This document shows, piece after piece, positions 55,845 to 63,771 of a stretch of DNA of 64,000 bases. Source of the stretch: Natronomonas halophila (GTDB lineage: Archaea > Halobacteriota > Halobacteria > Halobacteriales > Haloarculaceae); assembly GCF_013391085.1 (NCBI RefSeq), contig NZ_CP058334.1, positions 1,550,001 to 1,614,000 of the forward strand, read 5' to 3'. How positions within the stretch are numbered: position 1 is the first letter of the stretch; every line of letters begins with the position of its first letter. The position numbers were made by a program, and so were the translations under genes. The notes beneath the pieces were generated by a model. It had not been told where the DNA came from, ran no database searches, and was given only the letters and a program-made list of their open reading frames with translations.

Positions 55845-56138
55845 ATGACCGTCGAAGTACGCCTCATCGGCCCCGAGGGGAACGAAACCCACGAGTTCGA
55901 CGACGAGGCGGCCGACCGACTATGCCGACCGACCACTCTCGAACTCCTGCGAACGCTGGCCAGCGAGGAGCCAACGAGTATCCGCGAGGCCGCCCGGCTG
56001 GTGGACCGCGACGTCCGGCAGGTCCACGACAACCTCTGGAAACTTGGCGAACTCGGCCTCGTGGAGTTCGACCGGAGCGGCCAGTCCCACCGGCCGTTCG
56101 TCACTTACGAGCGTATCGAAGTCGAAATCGACCTCTAG
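55845..56138 (+). CDS. Small winged-helix DNA-binding protein
   Basis: 97 residues from ATG 55845, about 25-31 bases after ATTATAAG. Helix-turn-helix at about 31-75: [49 protein letters not shown], a MarR/HVO_A0114-like pattern. The N-terminal 25 residues add a short beta part ([16 protein letters not shown]). It ends four bases inside the convergent CbtA gene. It is the only regulator near the cobalt/cobalamin genes, so a link to the shared dyad is possible but unsupported. Confidence 0.75.
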
Positions 56139-56857
56139 TCGGCCGCTATCGGGCGAACGTCCGGGGGCCGCTCAGTTCGACTGCTTTTCAGGCGGGCGTG
56201 CGTTGCCGCGGTGATTCCCCACAGACCGAGTTGCCCAACGACAATCGCGCCGACGTAGAGCGACTCGAAGGACGCGGGGAGCGCGCTCTCGTAGGTCGGC
56301 GACGGTGCGACGAGGACCGCCACGCCGACGATTGCCGTGAAAACGGCGACGCCAGCGACGCCCGCAACGGCGTTTCCGTGGTCCGACAGACGAGTATATA
56401 TCGAACCCGCCGCGAGGCAGGCAATCGCACCCGTCGCTATCAGGCCGACGTATAAATACCGGCTCGTCCCAACGGCGAGACTCGTTTCGACGCCCGGCGC
56501 GGCCGGCGGCAGGACGAGCCACGGGACGCCCGAGACGGTCAGGAAGCCGGCGAGGCCCAGCAGGTAGCTCTGCCCGCGTTCGGGTAGCGCCGGTTCGACG
56601 AGGAAGGCGACGACCCCGAAGACGACGACGCCGAACAGCAGGCCGAGGGCGACGCCGCTGCCGACCGAGATGGCCTGCATCAGCCCCTCGCTGACGAGCG
56701 GTTCGGAGACCTCATGGGCGTGTTCGTGGGCGTGGCTTTCGTGAGCCAGCGTCTCGGCGTGTGCGACCAGCGGGTTGCCGACAAGCGCCATGTAGAGGCC
56801 GTAGGCGCCGCCGCCGACGGCGCCCGCGAGCGCGCCGCGCTGCAGGTAGTCGTACAT
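56135..56857 (-). CDS. cbtA: Cobalt transporter subunit CbtA
   Basis: 240 residues, five to six transmembrane helices, with a histidine-rich loop after the first helix (HAETLAHESHAHEHAHE, seven histidines between 33 and 48) that can capture metal. VSEGLMQAISVGSGVALGLLFGVVVFGVVAF and the long Pro/Gly-rich helical block match CbtA. Its ATG overlaps the CbtB stop (TGATG), the standard cbtB-cbtA order. Together they are proposed to take up cobalt for cobalamin synthesis; the context with chelatase genes supports this. Confidence 0.88.
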   Translation of the reverse strand: MYDYLQRGALAGAVGGGAYGLYMALVGNPLVAHAETLAHESHAHEHAHEVSEPLVSEGLMQAISVGSGVALGLLFGVVVFGVVAFLVEPALPERGQSYLLGLAGFLTVSGVPWLVLPPAAPGVETSLAVGTSRYLYVGLIATGAIACLAAGSIYTRLSDHGNAVAGVAGVAVFTAIVGVAVLVAPSPTYESALPASFESLYVGAIVVGQLGLWGITAATHARLKSSRTERPPDVRPIAAD

Positions 56858-57045
56858 CAGTGACAGATGACACCGGCGACGTGGCGGCCGTTGTGCATGG
56901 CGTCGTGGACGAGCGGGTCGCCCGCAAAGGCCAGCAGGAACAGCCCCAGCGTGATGGCGGCGAGGCCGAGCGCGACCTGCGTCGGCGAGAGCGTCCCAGC
57001 GGCGGTGTCGATACGGTCCGAAACGGTGTCGTTTGCGACCGGCAT
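56857..57045 (-). CDS. cbtB: Cobalt transporter subunit CbtB
   Basis: 62 residues with one transmembrane helix (about 22-41) and a metal-binding C-terminus AGDPLVHDAMHNGRHVAGVICH (His47, His51, His55, Cys61, His62), the CbtB hallmark. It is the small partner of CbtA. It lies 40 bases after the chelatase gene chlID and may be read from it or from its own promoter, in which a dyad shared with the cobN/chlID promoter is found. Confidence 0.9.
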   Translation of the reverse strand: MPVANDTVSDRIDTAAGTLSPTQVALGLAAITLGLFLLAFAGDPLVHDAMHNGRHVAGVICH

Positions 57046-57053
57046 TTTAAATC

Positions 57054-57072
57054 CACTTGTTTAAAGAACAAG
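57054..57072 (-). promoter_or_regulatory. Dyad in front of cbtB, shared with the cobN/chlID promoter
   Basis: CTTGTT (57056-57061), TAAAG, AACAAG (57067-57072) is a perfect 6-bp inverted repeat. On the minus strand it reads CTTGTTCTTTAAACAAGTG and covers -27 to -9 relative to the cbtB ATG, downstream of a possible TTTTAC box at the chlID stop. The minus-strand form TTGTTCTTTAAACAAGTG matches TTGTGCTAATACAAGTG in front of chlID. Confidence 0.6.
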
Positions 57073-57085
57073 CAAGGTTGTAAAA

Positions 57086-59167
57086 CTATCGCCGCGCGTT
57101 CGCCACCGCCTGCTCGATACGTTCGGGCGTCAGCGCGTCCAGCGGCACGCGGTCGCCCTCCGTGGCGGCGACGACCTCCGAAAGCAGGCCGCGCTCGTCG
57201 CCCGCTTCGACACAGACCACGCGGGCGCCCGTTTCGGCGAGCGCCGCCGCAGCACGGCGGGTGTCGGCCGTCGGATTATCGGCCGCGTTGGCCCGGCCGT
57301 CCGAGACGACGACCACGACCGCAGCCTCCGGGTCCGCGCGGTCGACGACTTCCGCGGCGCTCCGCAGGCCCGCTGGCAGGGGCGTCCGGTCGCCGGTCGG
57401 CAGGTCCTTCAGGTGTCGCGCCGCGAGCGTCACCGAATCCGTCGGCGGCAGGAGTACCTCGGCCTCGTCGCCCGCGAAGGCGACGACGGAGACGCTGTCG
57501 CGCTCGGTGTAGGCGTCCTCCAGCAAGTCGAGGGTAACGCCCTTGGCCGTCCGCATCGCCGACCGCATCGACGCACTCGCGTCGACGGCGAAGACGACGA
57601 GCGCCTCGCCCTCACCGGAGCGGACCGACCGCCGGAGATCGCGCGTCTCGACGCCGTCGGCGCCCCGACTGGCCGCCGCCCGGACCGAGGCGGCGGCGTC
57701 GACTCCGTGGCCATTTTCGGCCGGTTCGGTGCGCACGCGCGTCCCGCGATTGCCGGTCGCCGGTGCCGCGGCCGCTCGGCCCGTTCCCTCAGCACCGTCG
57801 ATTTCGGATGCCTCGACATCCGGCGAAATGGCGTCGGTAGGTGCCTCGCGCTGCTGGCCCGGGACGAGCGGCGTCGCTTCCTCGGGGTCATCGGAGTCAG
57901 CGTCGGTATCGTCACCGGCCTCGGCCCCCGGTTCGGCCGCCTCGGCGTCGTCGGCCTCGCTCGGTTGCGGGGCCGGCTGCTGGTCGGGTGTGGGGGGGTC
58001 ACCGTCGTCGGACTCGTCACCGGGGTTGGCAGAGTCATCGGACGGTTCGCCGCCCTCGGCGTCTTCCCTGTCGTCGGCCTCGCCCTCATCCTCGCCTTCG
58101 GGTTCCGGCTCTTCCTCGGGATCAGTCTCCTCATCGTCCGCCTCCTCGCCTTCCTCACCCTCCTCGTCCTCGTCGAAGTGATCGTCAATGACATCCTCGG
58201 CGTCCGGTGCGTCCTCGAAGGGCCGGGACTGCATCCGGTGGGCAAGCGCGAGTTCCGCCGCGCGTTCGAGGTCAGCGTCGGTGACGGTCGGTCGGCCGTC
58301 CAGCGCCGCCAGCGCTCGCGCCGACCGGGCAGTCGCTATGTCGGCGCGATGGCCTTCGACGCCCGCTTCGAGACAGAGTTCCGCGATATCGCGCTTCTGC
58401 TCGTCGGTGAGTTCGACCTCGCCCAGCATCTCGCGGGCCTGCCGAAGCCGTCGGCGGTAGTCGGTGGTGTCGTCTGCCCGACCGGAATCGCCGAGGTTGT
58501 CGTCGATAATGGCGACGCGATCCTCGACGTCGCGCTCACCGCGAACCTCGACGGAGAGGGCGAATCGGTCCCGGAGTTGGGGCCGGAGGTCGCCTTCCTC
58601 GGGGTTCATCGTCCCGACGAGGGTGAACTCGGCGGGATGGGCGACGCTGACGCCGTCGCGTTCGACACGGTTCTCGCCGGAAGCGGCAGCGTCGAGCAGA
58701 ACGTCGACGAGGTGGTCGTCGAGTAGGTTCACCTCGTCGACGTAGAGGATACCGCGATTGGCGCGGGCCAGGAGGCCGGGGTCGAACTCGGTCTCGCCGG
58801 CCAGCGCGTCCGAGACGGAGAGGGTACCGACGACGCGCTCGCGGGTCGCGCCCAGCGGCAGGGTAACCAGCGGGACGGGTCGCGTCTCCACCGGCAGAAA
58901 CGCGCGCTCGCGGCAGTCGTTGCATTGCTGCGAGCGGTCGTCGGGCGGACAGCCGTAGGGGCAATCCGCCACGGCGCGCTGGTCGGGCAGGAGGTCGGCC
59001 AGTCCCCGCACCAGCGTGGATTTGGCGGTGCCCTTCTCGCCGGTGGCGAGCAGGCCGTCAAGCCCGTCGTCGGCCGCGACGGTCAGGAGCGCCTCCTTCA
59101 GTCGCTCCTGGCCCACGACCGCGCCGAACGGCGTGGAAACGCTTTTGGTTTCGGCGAAATCAAACAC
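57086..59167 (-). CDS. chlID: Cobaltochelatase ChlI/ChlD fusion (AAA+ plus VWA)
   Basis: 693 residues from GTG 59167, about 27 bases after a GATAAAC box and matching the family start; a TTG ten codons earlier also opens the frame. N-terminal AAA+ domain with GEKGTAKST (about 43-51) and LYVDEVNLLDDH, a zinc-like cluster CPYGCPPDDRSQQCNDC; then an extremely acidic linker of about 150 residues; then a VWA domain with the MIDAS motif DASASMRS. It drives ATP-dependent insertion of cobalt by CobN. Divergent from cobN by 34 bases and followed by the cobalt transporter genes. Confidence 0.9.
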   Translation of the reverse strand: MFDFAETKSVSTPFGAVVGQERLKEALLTVAADDGLDGLLATGEKGTAKSTLVRGLADLLPDQRAVADCPYGCPPDDRSQQCNDCRERAFLPVETRPVPLVTLPLGATRERVVGTLSVSDALAGETEFDPGLLARANRGILYVDEVNLLDDHLVDVLLDAAASGENRVERDGVSVAHPAEFTLVGTMNPEEGDLRPQLRDRFALSVEVRGERDVEDRVAIIDDNLGDSGRADDTTDYRRRLRQAREMLGEVELTDEQKRDIAELCLEAGVEGHRADIATARSARALAALDGRPTVTDADLERAAELALAHRMQSRPFEDAPDAEDVIDDHFDEDEEGEEGEEADDEETDPEEEPEPEGEDEGEADDREDAEGGEPSDDSANPGDESDDGDPPTPDQQPAPQPSEADDAEAAEPGAEAGDDTDADSDDPEEATPLVPGQQREAPTDAISPDVEASEIDGAEGTGRAAAAPATGNRGTRVRTEPAENGHGVDAAASVRAAASRGADGVETRDLRRSVRSGEGEALVVFAVDASASMRSAMRTAKGVTLDLLEDAYTERDSVSVVAFAGDEAEVLLPPTDSVTLAARHLKDLPTGDRTPLPAGLRSAAEVVDRADPEAAVVVVVSDGRANAADNPTADTRRAAAALAETGARVVCVEAGDERGLLSEVVAATEGDRVPLDALTPERIEQAVANARR

Positions 59168-59183
59168 ACTTGTATTAGCACAA
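59167..59183. promoter_or_regulatory. Shared dyad in the 34-bp chlID/cobN divergent promoter
   Basis: TTGT (59170-59173), ATTAGC, ACAA (59180-59183), preceded by CAC. On the chlID strand it reads TTGTGCTAATACAAGTG, agreeing with the cbtB site at 14 of 17 positions with one gap. It abuts the chlID start and overlies the likely TATA (TTGTATTAG) of cobN, so one protein bound here could block both genes. TATA boxes of the two genes overlap head to head. Confidence 0.6.
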
Positions 59184-59201
59184 CGCGAGTTTATCAATAT
59201 T

Positions 59202-62200
59202 ATGCCCCGGATTGGACTCTACACCGCGACCGAAAACGAACTGGGCGCTCTGCAGCGCGCCGCCGACAAGGTCGATTCGGACCTCGTCGTCCGCTCGGAG
59301 AGCGACCTCGACGAACCCGATGACGTCGAGGCGTTCTGCGACGAACTAGCCGACTGCGACGTCGTCGTCTTGTGGCTCCACGGCGCCGAGGACTCGATGC
59401 CGGGCTACGACCGGGCCATCGACCGCTGTTACGACGCCGGCGTCCCCGTCGTCGTGAAGGCGACCGGCGACGCCTTCGCCATCGAGGATACGACCGTCCC
59501 GGGCAGCGTCCGGGATACCGTCTGCGAGTACCTCGAAAAAGGCGGGAGCGCGAACCTCGCCAACGCCGTCCGGTACCTCGCCGACCGCTTTACGACCGTC
59601 GACCGCGAGTACGACGCCCCCGTCGACCTGCCGACCGAAGGCGTCTACCACCCAGACCACCCCGGCGCATCTTACGAGGAACTGCGCGCGACGCTGGACC
59701 CCGACCGGCCGACCGTCGCCGTCTGGTTCTACGAATCCCACTGGACCCACGAGAACACCCGCTACGTCGATTCGCTGGTGCGGGCCATCGAGGCGGAGGG
59801 TGCCGACGCCCTACCCGTCTTCTGTAACCCCGTCACCGACAGCGACGAGCAGGAAGACGCCGAGTGGGTCGTCGACAACTGGCTCACCTCCGAGGACGGC
59901 GACCCCCTCGTGGACGCCGTCTGCTCGTCGTTCATGTTCTCGCTGTCGATGTCCGAGCGCGGCCGCGATGCCAGCGACGAAGGCTCCGACGCCGAGGAAG
60001 TCTTCCTCAAGCGCCTCGGCGTCCCTGTCATCCAGACGGTGACGACGATGCGCTCGCGGTCGCGCTACCAGTCCAGCGACACGGGCGTCATGGGCTTCGA
60101 ACTCGCCCTTTCCGTCGCGTTGCCGGAGTTCGACGGCAACGTCATCACCCACCCCATCTCGGGCAAGGAACGCACCGACGACGAAGCGGGCATCGGCAGC
60201 GCGCCGAAACAGCACTTCCCCATCGAGGACCGCGTCGACCACGCCGCCTCGCTGGTCGTCAACTGGGCGAACCTGCGATATACGCCCAACGACGAGAAGA
60301 ACGTCGCCGTCGTCCTCCACAACTACCCGCCGAGCGACGACGGCATCGGGACTGCCTTCGGCCTCGACTCGCCGGAGTCGACGGTCAACCTGCTCGATGA
60401 ACTGCGCGCGCGGGACTACGATTTGGGAGGGCAATTCCCCGACTCGGGTCAGGAGCTTATCGAGACGCTCACCTCACAACTCACGCTGGACGACCGCTGG
60501 GTCGCCCCCGAGGACGTTCGGGACCGCTCGGTGGACGTTGTCTCGTCCGAGCAGTACGACGAGTGGTGGGCCGAGGCGGACCCCGACTTCCGCGAGAACG
60601 TCGTCAAGGAGTGGGGCGAGGCGCCGGACCGACCCTTCGCCATCCCTGGCGCGGAGTTCGGCAACGTCCTCGTGACCGTCCAGCCCCCGCGTGGGTTCGG
60701 TATGGACCCCTCGAAGGTATACCACGACTCGGACCTCCAGCCGCCGCACGACTACTACGCCTTCTACGCGTGGCTCCGCAACGACTTCGACGCCGACGCC
60801 GTCGTCCATCTCGGTACCCACGGCTCCTTGGAGTGGCTTCCGGGCAAGACGGTTGGCCTCGACGGCGAGTCCGCACCCGACGCGCTCGTCTCCGACCTGC
60901 CGAACGTCTACCCCTACATCATCAACAACCCCGGCGAGGGCACGCAGGCGAAACGCCGCTCCTACGCCGCCATCGTCGACTACCTCACGCCGCCGATGGC
61001 CAACGCCGGAACCTACGACGAACTCGCGGAACTCGAAGAGTTGGCCGACCAGTACCGCGAGGCCGGCAGCGAGGCCGGTGAGACGGTCGAACGCCTCCTC
61101 CGGGAGGCGGTCGACGAACTCGACCTCGCGGTCGAACTCGGAATCGCGGGCGACATCGACGAGAAAGCCGACGTACGCGGGCCCGAGGAAGCCGGCACAA
61201 GCCTTGCCGAGGGTGAGGTTTCAGGCGATGTAATCGGCGTCGACGAACTCGTCGAGCGCGTCCACGCCTACCTGACCGACGTGAAATCGACTCAGATTCG
61301 GATGGGGCTGCACACGATGAGCGAACCCCCCGAAGACGACTCCCTCGTGGAATACCTCGTCGCGCTCACCCGCCTCGAAAACCCCGGTGCGCCATCCCTC
61401 CGCGAGAGCGTCGCAGGCGTGCTGGGTGTCGACTACCAGACGATGCTCGATTCGCCCGGCGAGTACGACGAGACGCTCGGCATGACCTACTCGCAGGCCG
61501 CCGACGCGGTCCACGAGAAGAGCGTCGAACTGGTCGAGACGCTCGCCGAGTACGATTTCGACGTGCCCGAATCCAACGTCGATGCCGGCCCCGACGACGA
61601 AGTGAACATGAACCTGCTCGTCGTCGACATCGACCCGCTCGGCGACGCCCGCGTGCAGGGCGGCGCCCACGACGACCTCCGGGAGGTGCTGGCCTACATC
61701 TGCGAGGAGGCCGCCCCGAGCGTGCTGGAAGCAGAGGAGGAGATTCCACAGACCGTCGACGCGCTCAATGGCGAATACGTCCCGCCGGGCGGAAGCGGCG
61801 CGCCGACCCGCGGCGGCGTTGACCTGCTGCCGACGGGCCGGAACTTCTACACGCTGGACCCCCGGAAAGTGCCCGCCAAATCGGCGTGGGAGGTCGGCCG
61901 TGAGGTGGCCGACGGCACACTCGAACACCATCACGACGAACACGGCGAGTATCCCGAGGAAATCGGCGTCGTGGCGTGGGGGACGCCCACCGTTCGAACC
62001 CGTGGCGAGACCATCGCGCAGGTGCTCGCGCTGATGGGCATCGAACCGGTCTGGACCGACGCCGGCCGCATCGACGACGTGGAGCCGATTCCGCTCGACG
62101 AACTGGGACGGCCCCGCGTCGACGCGACGACCCGCGTCTCGGGGCTGTTCCGCGACGCCTTCCCGCAGGCGGCGGGTGTCATCCACGACGCCGTCGATGC

Positions 62201-63092
62201 CGTCGTCGACCTCGACGAGTCCCACGAGGAGAACTTCGTCAAGAAACACGTCGAGGAGGAAGCCGAGGAACTGGAAGAAGAGGGTATGGACCCCGAGGAG
62301 GCCCGCGACGCAGCGATGCCGCGAGTCTTCACCACGCGTCCGGGCGGCTACGGCGCCGGCACGAACAAGGCCGTCGACGAGGGGAACTGGGAGGACCGCT
62401 CCGATTTAGCGGAGGTCTACGTCCAGTGGGGCGGCTACGCGATGGGTTCGCGCGGCCGCGTGAGCGAGGACCACGACGGCTTCCGCCGGCGCCTCGGCAG
62501 CGTCGACGCGACGGTCAAAATCGAGGACACGATGGAACAGGACGAGTTCGACTCCTCGGACTGGTATGCCTTCCACGGCGGCTTCATCACCGCCGTCTCC
62601 GAAGTATCGGGCGAAGAACCCGCCTCCTACGTCGGCGACTCCTCGGACCCGGACAACATCGACGTCTACACGAACGAGGAGAAGGTCCGCAAGGCGATGC
62701 GCGCCCGCGTGCTCAACCCCGAATGGCTCGATTCGATGGAAGAGCACGGCTACAAGGGCGCCGGCGACCTCTCCCAGACGGTCGACGTGACGCTCGGGTG
62801 GGACGCCACCACCGACGTCGTCAGCGACACGCTCTGGAACGAGGTGGCCGAGAAGTACGCCTTCGACGAGGACCGCCAGGAGTGGATGCGCGACGTGAAC
62901 CCGTGGGCGCTGGAATCCATCACGGACACCCTGCTGGAAGCCATCGAGCGGGACTTCTGGGACGCCGACGATGAAACCGAGGAACGGCTGCAGGACCTCA
63001 ACCTGCGCGTGGATGGGGACCTGGAGGAACGAGCGACGGATGCTGGTCGTGGCGACGGCCACTCCACGGAGGTGGCCAGCGATGACGACTAA
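59202..63092 (+). CDS. cobN: Cobaltochelatase large subunit CobN
   Basis: 1296 residues from ATG 59202 ([18 protein letters not shown]). The CobN/BchH family is recognised by [105 protein letters not shown] and [10 protein letters not shown]. It binds hydrogenobyrinate or sirohydrochlorin-type substrate and cobalt, with ChlID as motor. Length is in the usual range (about 1250-1350). Its stop lies within the cbiC start by 11 bases, so the two are coupled. Confidence 0.95.
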   Translation: [1296 protein letters not shown]

Positions 63093-63771
63093 CCCAGACT
63101 TCGAGGAGTACGCCGACCTCGGCGCGACTACCTCGGACGCCATGGAAATCGCCGAAACGAGCATGGACCGCGTCCACGAAATCGTCCCACAGGAGACGCT
63201 GGCCGACCGGGTCCGCGCGAAGTCGGTCCACGCAACCGGCGACCCCGAGTTCCAGCACCTGATGCGGTTTACCGGCGCCGACGAATCCGAGCCGCTCCGG
63301 GCCGGCGCGCAGGCAGTCCTCGACGAACAGCCCATCGTCACCGACATCACGATGGTCAAATCCGGCATCACGGGCCGCGGCCACGATTGTGAGGTCAAGA
63401 AGGCCATCGGCAACGGCGCGGAACTGGCCGCCGAGACGGGGATGACCCGGACCGCTGCCTCAGTGCTGGAACTCGACAAGGAGGGCATCTACGACGGTGC
63501 CATCGCGGCCGTCGGCAACGCGCCGACCGCGGCCCTCGCGCTGGCGGACTGCATCGAGCAGGGTACCCGCCCGGCCGTCATCGTCGGGACGCCCGTGGGG
63601 TTCGTGAAGGCCGCCAAGAGCCGAAAACGGCTCCGAGAGGTCTGCGAGGAACACGGCGTGCCGGCCATCACGAACGTCGGCCGACGCGGCGGCAGCGGCC
63701 TCGCCGCCGGCCTGACGAACGAACTGGTCCACGTGGCGAGTGATGTTAGAGATGGTGAGGTCGAACTGTGA
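63082..63771 (+). CDS. cbiC: Cobalt-precorrin-8 methylmutase
   Basis: 229 residues from ATG 63082, overlapping the cobN end and preceded by GGAGGTGGCCAGCG. The catalytic histidine is in VHATGDPEF (His50). Other blocks: IVTDITMVKSGI (about 95-106) and VVNAPTAALA-like GNAPTAALALADCIEQG (about 156-172), PVGFVKAAKSRK. It moves the methyl group from C11 to C12 of the corrin ring. Next step after ring contraction in cobalamin synthesis. Its stop overlaps the next start by GTGA. Confidence 0.95.
   Translation: MTTNPDFEEYADLGATTSDAMEIAETSMDRVHEIVPQETLADRVRAKSVHATGDPEFQHLMRFTGADESEPLRAGAQAVLDEQPIVTDITMVKSGITGRGHDCEVKKAIGNGAELAAETGMTRTAASVLELDKEGIYDGAIAAVGNAPTAALALADCIEQGTRPAVIVGTPVGFVKAAKSRKRLREVCEEHGVPAITNVGRRGGSGLAAGLTNELVHVASDVRDGEVEL

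Follow-up and report, generated by a model that had tools for sequence, protein, structure and literature searches.

The cobalamin riboswitch is a conserved RNA fold in the 5′ leader, the operators of the metal regulator NikR have half-sites of the GTATGA-N16-TCATAC type, and the motif of TrmB is TACT-N7/8-GAGTA. For some archaea, a DNA signal termed the 'CBL-box' was reportedly predicted by Rodionov et al. in 2003 for a hypothetical B12 regulator. A second, TrmB-dependent regulator of the cob/cbi genes was inferred in Halobacterium, and its identity was left open (PMC3794607). The operator described here bears on how archaea without B12 riboswitches sense corrinoids.

The sequence under study was a 64-kb stretch of the haloarchaeon Natronomonas halophila (G000:C1:1550001-1614000; hereafter the window), and its cobalt and corrinoid genes, operators, and promoter elements are collected in Table 1. 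An earlier note on this DNA had proposed that one dyad, shared by the cbtB and chlID/cobN promoters, was a candidate cobalt/corrinoid operator, probably read by a DNA-binding protein. Both quoted sites were recovered on the minus strand, with 14 of 17 positions identical in a one-gap alignment. The shared dyad was real, but each quoted site covered only the inner half of a 32-33 bp operator; as to the limits of the sites, the dyad was present as quoted, the trailing GTG fell outside the motif, and the centre at chlID was TA. The two dyads were not significant inside the 64-kb window (2 matches at ≤3 mismatches vs. 3.9 expected); since similarity within the window was not above chance, the case rests on comparison with relatives. 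Sequence comparison established the operator and its conservation, identified its targets, and placed it relative to putative TATA boxes and start codons; on these grounds both window sites are very likely copies of one operator for a regulator of a corrinoid and cobalt regulon, for which corrinoid-bound repression is proposed.

Table 1. Features of the cbtBA and chlID/cobN locus (positions in the window) and, in the last row, the operator matches of the N. halophila genome
Feature	Position	Strand	Remarks
Winged-helix gene, HVO_A0114 family	55845..56138	+	Pfam; 1 kb away
cbtA, cobalt transporter subunit	56135..56857	-	Pfam PF09490
cbtB, cobalt transporter subunit	56857..57045	-	Pfam PF09489; ATG at 57045
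Operator 1, 33 bp, N9 spacer, CAACCTTGCTTGTTCTTTAAACAAGTGGATTTA	57048..57080	-	Precedes cbtB; ends 2 bp before ATG
Operator 1 inner dyad, TTGTTCTTTAAACAAGTG	57054..57071	-	Site before cbtB in the earlier note
TATA-like TTTTACAA, cbtB promoter	57078..57085	-	Putative TATA box; overlaps operator 1 left arm
chlID, AAA + VWA cobaltochelatase partner subunit	57086..59167	-	Pfam; GTG start at 59167
Operator 2, 32 bp, minus-strand AAACTCGCGTTGTGCTAATACAAGTGTGTTTG	59161..59192	.	Overlaps chlID GTG start; ends 9 bp before cobN ATG
Operator 2 inner dyad, TTGTGCTAATACAAGTG	59167..59183	-	Site in the 34-bp chlID/cobN gap in the earlier note
cobN, cobaltochelatase large subunit	59202..63092	+	Pfam PF02514; ATG at 59202
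Probable precorrin-8X methylmutase, downstream of cobN	63082..63771	+	Gene order matches annotated relatives
32-bp matches in N. halophila	btuC-type permease 743616; chlID/cobN; cbiX with divergent cobT 1616437; cbiT 1664808		Genome search

The operator consensus was MAA-N6-TTK-N3-TW-N3-MAA-N6-TTK, a 32-bp palindrome lengthened to 33 bp by an N9 spacer at some cbtB genes; with this spacer variant, its general form was MAA-N6-TTK-N8/9-MAA-N6-TTK with MAA/TTK as outer arms, and the cbtB operator of the window ended in TTA, not TTK. The centres of the two outer half-dyads were 20 bp apart, about two helical turns. The arms were found by column information over non-redundant promoters (<80% identity; 22 of chlID, 17 of cbiT, and 20 of cbtB), which showed (i) the left AA at -8/-7 in 19/22 chlID, 15/17 cbiT, and 20/20 cbtB promoters, (ii) the mirrored TT in 22/22, 17/17, and 19/20 of them, respectively, and (iii) TTTACAA in all 20 cbtB promoters, with bases -8 to -6 invariant. 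Symmetric half-sites were conserved across unrelated promoters, as is characteristic of a palindromic transcription-factor operator.

The idea that the sites are merely overlapping core-promoter elements (TATA/BRE, initiator) of close divergent promoters has very little probability. At cbtB and chlID, the left arm does share bases with TATA-like boxes, and the chlID dyad contains the presumed TATA of cobN; the palindrome, however, followed the TATA box at cbtB and chlID, where it lay between this box and the start codon, yet preceded it at cbiT, and it occurred almost exclusively before B12/cobalt genes. The arms are not a by-product of the core promoter, because the left flank at cbiT contained no TATA and the right arm at cbtB no promoter box. 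Variable placement together with target specificity largely refutes the core-promoter explanation.

Among haloarchaeal relatives, almost all of 54 loci carried the dyad ahead of the chlID start, as did almost all of 25 loci ahead of cbtB, and the cbiT operon, distant from the window in N. halophila, carried the same dyad in about 20 genomes. A TATA-plus-dyad pattern was matched 28 times in 24 of the family's 57 genomes; 22 of these matches lay immediately before cbtB. Three shorter patterns (TTGTNCT-N-ACAA, TTGNNNTANNNCAAG, and CTTG-N9-CAAG) were dropped as too short; the 32-bp form was needed because these gave mixed matches. Applied to 59 haloarchaeal genomes, the 32-bp pattern gave 184 rows, compared to 2 for the reversed control, and was present in 55 of the genomes. 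The 55 chlID loci contained 95 pattern matches against 0.05 in dinucleotide shuffles; because the pattern had been derived in part from these loci, the independent test was provided by the genome search and the new targets. The sites were kept in relatives with the same gene order, the full motif was not randomly distributed, and the expectation that it would stand before cobalt/cobalamin genes was mainly borne out by the genome-wide search. The proposal that a single site serves both chlID and cobN was likewise supported, with operator 2 lying in their 34-bp gap. Between the divergent cbiT and cbtB genes of a Haloferax genome (L204; G092:C18:83485-83620), three operator copies were packed into about 135 bp.

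The four distinct 32-bp matches of N. halophila all lay before cobalt/corrinoid genes, and the cbtB site with its N9 spacer was the fifth operator of this genome. Among 70 operator loci that were inspected (two were fetched twice), BLAST matched 55 to reference B12/cobalt proteins; the remaining loci included those of BluB (273 bits; cutoff 150), a corrinoid protein, NrdD, class I NrdA-like subunits (four loci), and NikA-like and NMT1-like binding proteins, and three of the 70 had no plausible B12/cobalt link. The targets outside the set used to build the pattern included a BtuC-type permease, CbiM, CobT, CobA, CbiX, BluB, a corrinoid protein, and B12-independent ribonucleotide reductases. The BtuC-type permease site was near-universal and was kept in genomes where no cbiT was found; BtuC and BtuF were assigned from the FecCD and Peripla_BP_2 families, which iron transporters share, plus context. 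Taken together, the targets formed a coherent set above chance, as is characteristic of an operator.

Several individual targets extended this set. The operator was located near class I NrdA-like and class III NrdD genes at L327, L328, L344, L299, and L289 (G073, G103, G076, G091, and G001, respectively), which suggests B12-dependent switching between ribonucleotide reductase classes in haloarchaea. At L301 and L321 (G057 and G062), it was found 33 bp ahead of an NMT1-like ABC substrate-binding protein, a candidate new transporter of cobalt, corrinoid, or lower ligand. At L339 and L342 (G059 and G060), it preceded NikA-like binding proteins, which are perhaps cobalt rather than nickel transporters.

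The earlier view that no riboswitch is involved was supported: the cobalamin riboswitch families RF00174, RF01482, and RF01689 gave no Rfam match even at E≤1. For most operators, no more than about 10 bp separated the end from a start codon. The lack of a riboswitch match and the closeness of the sites to start codons leave a DNA-binding protein as the sole sensible reader, as the earlier note had held likely. The 32-33 bp palindrome very probably serves as operator for a DNA-binding regulator whose ligand would be a corrinoid, and this regulator is most likely a repressor, to judge from operator placement. A corrinoid signal is favoured over cobalt because the targets include B12 uptake, BluB, and B12-independent ribonucleotide reductases.

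In the proposed mechanism, a dimeric or tetrameric regulator would recognize the operator and, with sufficient corrinoid, bind it and repress. The operator (i) covers the TATA-to-start stretch at cbtB, chlID, and btuC, (ii) covers the presumed TATA region in the cobN direction, and (iii) lies directly upstream of BRE/TATA at cbiT. With little corrinoid, release of the regulator would turn on B12 uptake (BtuC type) and cobalt uptake (CbtBA, CbiM), cobalt insertion (CobN/ChlID) and corrin synthesis (cbiT operon, cbiX, cobT, bluB), and, in some species, the B12-independent ribonucleotide reductases. Repression is suggested by the operators covering the TATA-to-start region, while the placement at cbiT would fit an activator just as well. 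An activator bound to the operator, such as the feed-forward activator proposed for Halobacterium, is nevertheless unlikely: the cbiT operator does occupy a typical archaeal activator position just upstream of BRE/TATA, and the second cob/cbi regulator was modelled as an activator (PMC3794607), but the operators of cbtB, chlID, btuC, and cobT lie between TATA and start and overlap the TATA or start region, where a bound protein should block transcription.

The nature of the signal also bears on a different reading, in which a nickel/cobalt sensor of the NikR family acts as regulator and cobalt (or nickel), not corrinoid, is the signal to the regulon. NikR_C was found in 59/59 haloarchaea, the 20-bp spacing of the outer half-dyad centres is roughly that of NikR operators, CbtBA, CbiM, and NikA-like proteins are among the targets, and a cobO-like gene of N. 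halophila lies ~1 kb from nikR. Against this, the operator sequences contained no half-sites of the NikR type, no operator match was found in L280 (nikM/nikR) or at four further NikR loci (L395, L406, L407, and L409), and the BtuC-type permease, BluB, and the B12-independent ribonucleotide reductases fit a corrinoid signal better, which makes a NikR-family reader rather improbable. In the nikM/nikR intergenic region itself (L280:1216-1326), AGTATTAC words recurred and may represent the NikR site of haloarchaea.

As for the corrinoid-responsive regulator, the winged-helix protein encoded next to cbtA, suggested earlier and encoded 1 kb away, is almost certainly not the reader: it belongs to the HVO_A0114 family, and a homologue was present in only 1 of 58 chlID loci, whereas the operator was near-universal. 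The best candidate is a MarR-type/DUF7839 protein, to which we give a chance only slightly below even. This protein was single-copy and present in 59/59 haloarchaea (N. halophila copy, G000:C1:2475174-2475938) and in 77 of 100 genomes of the phylum, and its helix-turn-helix was strongly conserved; a PDB search gave weak winged-helix matches only, to SloR-type proteins. In at least eight genomes (Halorussus plus seven sampled ones), its gene and cbiT were transcribed divergently on either side of the operator; in one of these (L230), the gene was located between cbtBA and cbiT. Genetic linkage to the target genes was thus seen in those genomes, while elsewhere the gene was unlinked: it lay mostly away from cob genes, its methanogen neighbours being hypF and an ArsR-like gene. 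The protein was also present in genomes with few or no operators found, most promoters of its gene had no operator, and G131 (78% complete) had an operator-like site before cbiM with no DUF7839 protein detected.

Three further observations concerned the surroundings of the DUF7839 gene. An operator-like site was located upstream of it in G080 (L222) and perhaps in G090 (L231), where no cbiT was found; autoregulation of the gene is possible there. In methanogens (L262-L278 and L396-L402), the DUF7839 and ArsR-like genes formed a conserved operon, often divergent from hypF. A search for TTG-N7-9-CAA beside this methanogen operon gave nothing consistent.

The signal was weaker in other classes of Halobacteriota, with 112 motif rows vs. 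46 control rows in DUF7839-positive genomes and 26 vs. 37 in DUF7839-negative ones. In methanogens of the phylum, individual palindromic sites preceded CobT-like, CbiA, BtuF-, and BtuC-type genes (G112 and G139) and CbiM/CbiA (G174 and G187). On account of these individual sites, the regulon is suggested to predate the haloarchaea. A secreted methanogen protein encoded behind an operator (L382) was dropped as a target because its N-terminal part had no Pfam match. Salt-loving archaea and some methanogens probably control B12 by a DNA-binding protein, unlike the RNA switches of bacteria. The broadest reading, tentative and with the odds somewhat against it, is an ancient Halobacteriota-wide B12 regulon in which a universal wHTH/DUF7839 protein, an undescribed type of corrinoid sensor, would read the four-armed 32-bp operator and control cobalt transport, the uptake and synthesis of B12, and the change to ribonucleotide reductases that work without B12, as an archaeal counterpart of the bacterial B12 riboswitch.

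A precise operator, a target list from haloarchaea and methanogens, and one single-copy candidate make this regulon directly testable in Haloferax volcanii; the operator would also supply archaeal genetics with a promoter part responsive to B12 or cobalt and aid in assigning transporters of unknown substrate.

Compared with the described systems, the operator resembled the reported CBL-box in role and position, as a signal of a predicted archaeal B12 regulator upstream of B12/cobalt genes, and the two may be the same. What the present analysis contributes is the 32-bp structure with its four arms, the targets across the phylum, the link to ribonucleotide reductases, and the DUF7839 candidate. 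TrmB control in Halobacterium concerned the same cob/cbi pathway, and that study predicted a further regulator; the operator described here, however, did not match the TrmB motif. With NikR regulons, it shared the control of a metal cofactor and half-dyads about two helical turns apart, but it differed in half-site, in the dominance of corrinoid genes among its targets, and in its absence from the nikM/nikR region examined. The regulons of bacterial cobalamin riboswitches followed the same logic with very similar genes (uptake, cobalt transport, corrin synthesis, and B12-independent isozymes), whereas the operator was a double-stranded palindrome near the start codon, with little or no leader and no Rfam match.
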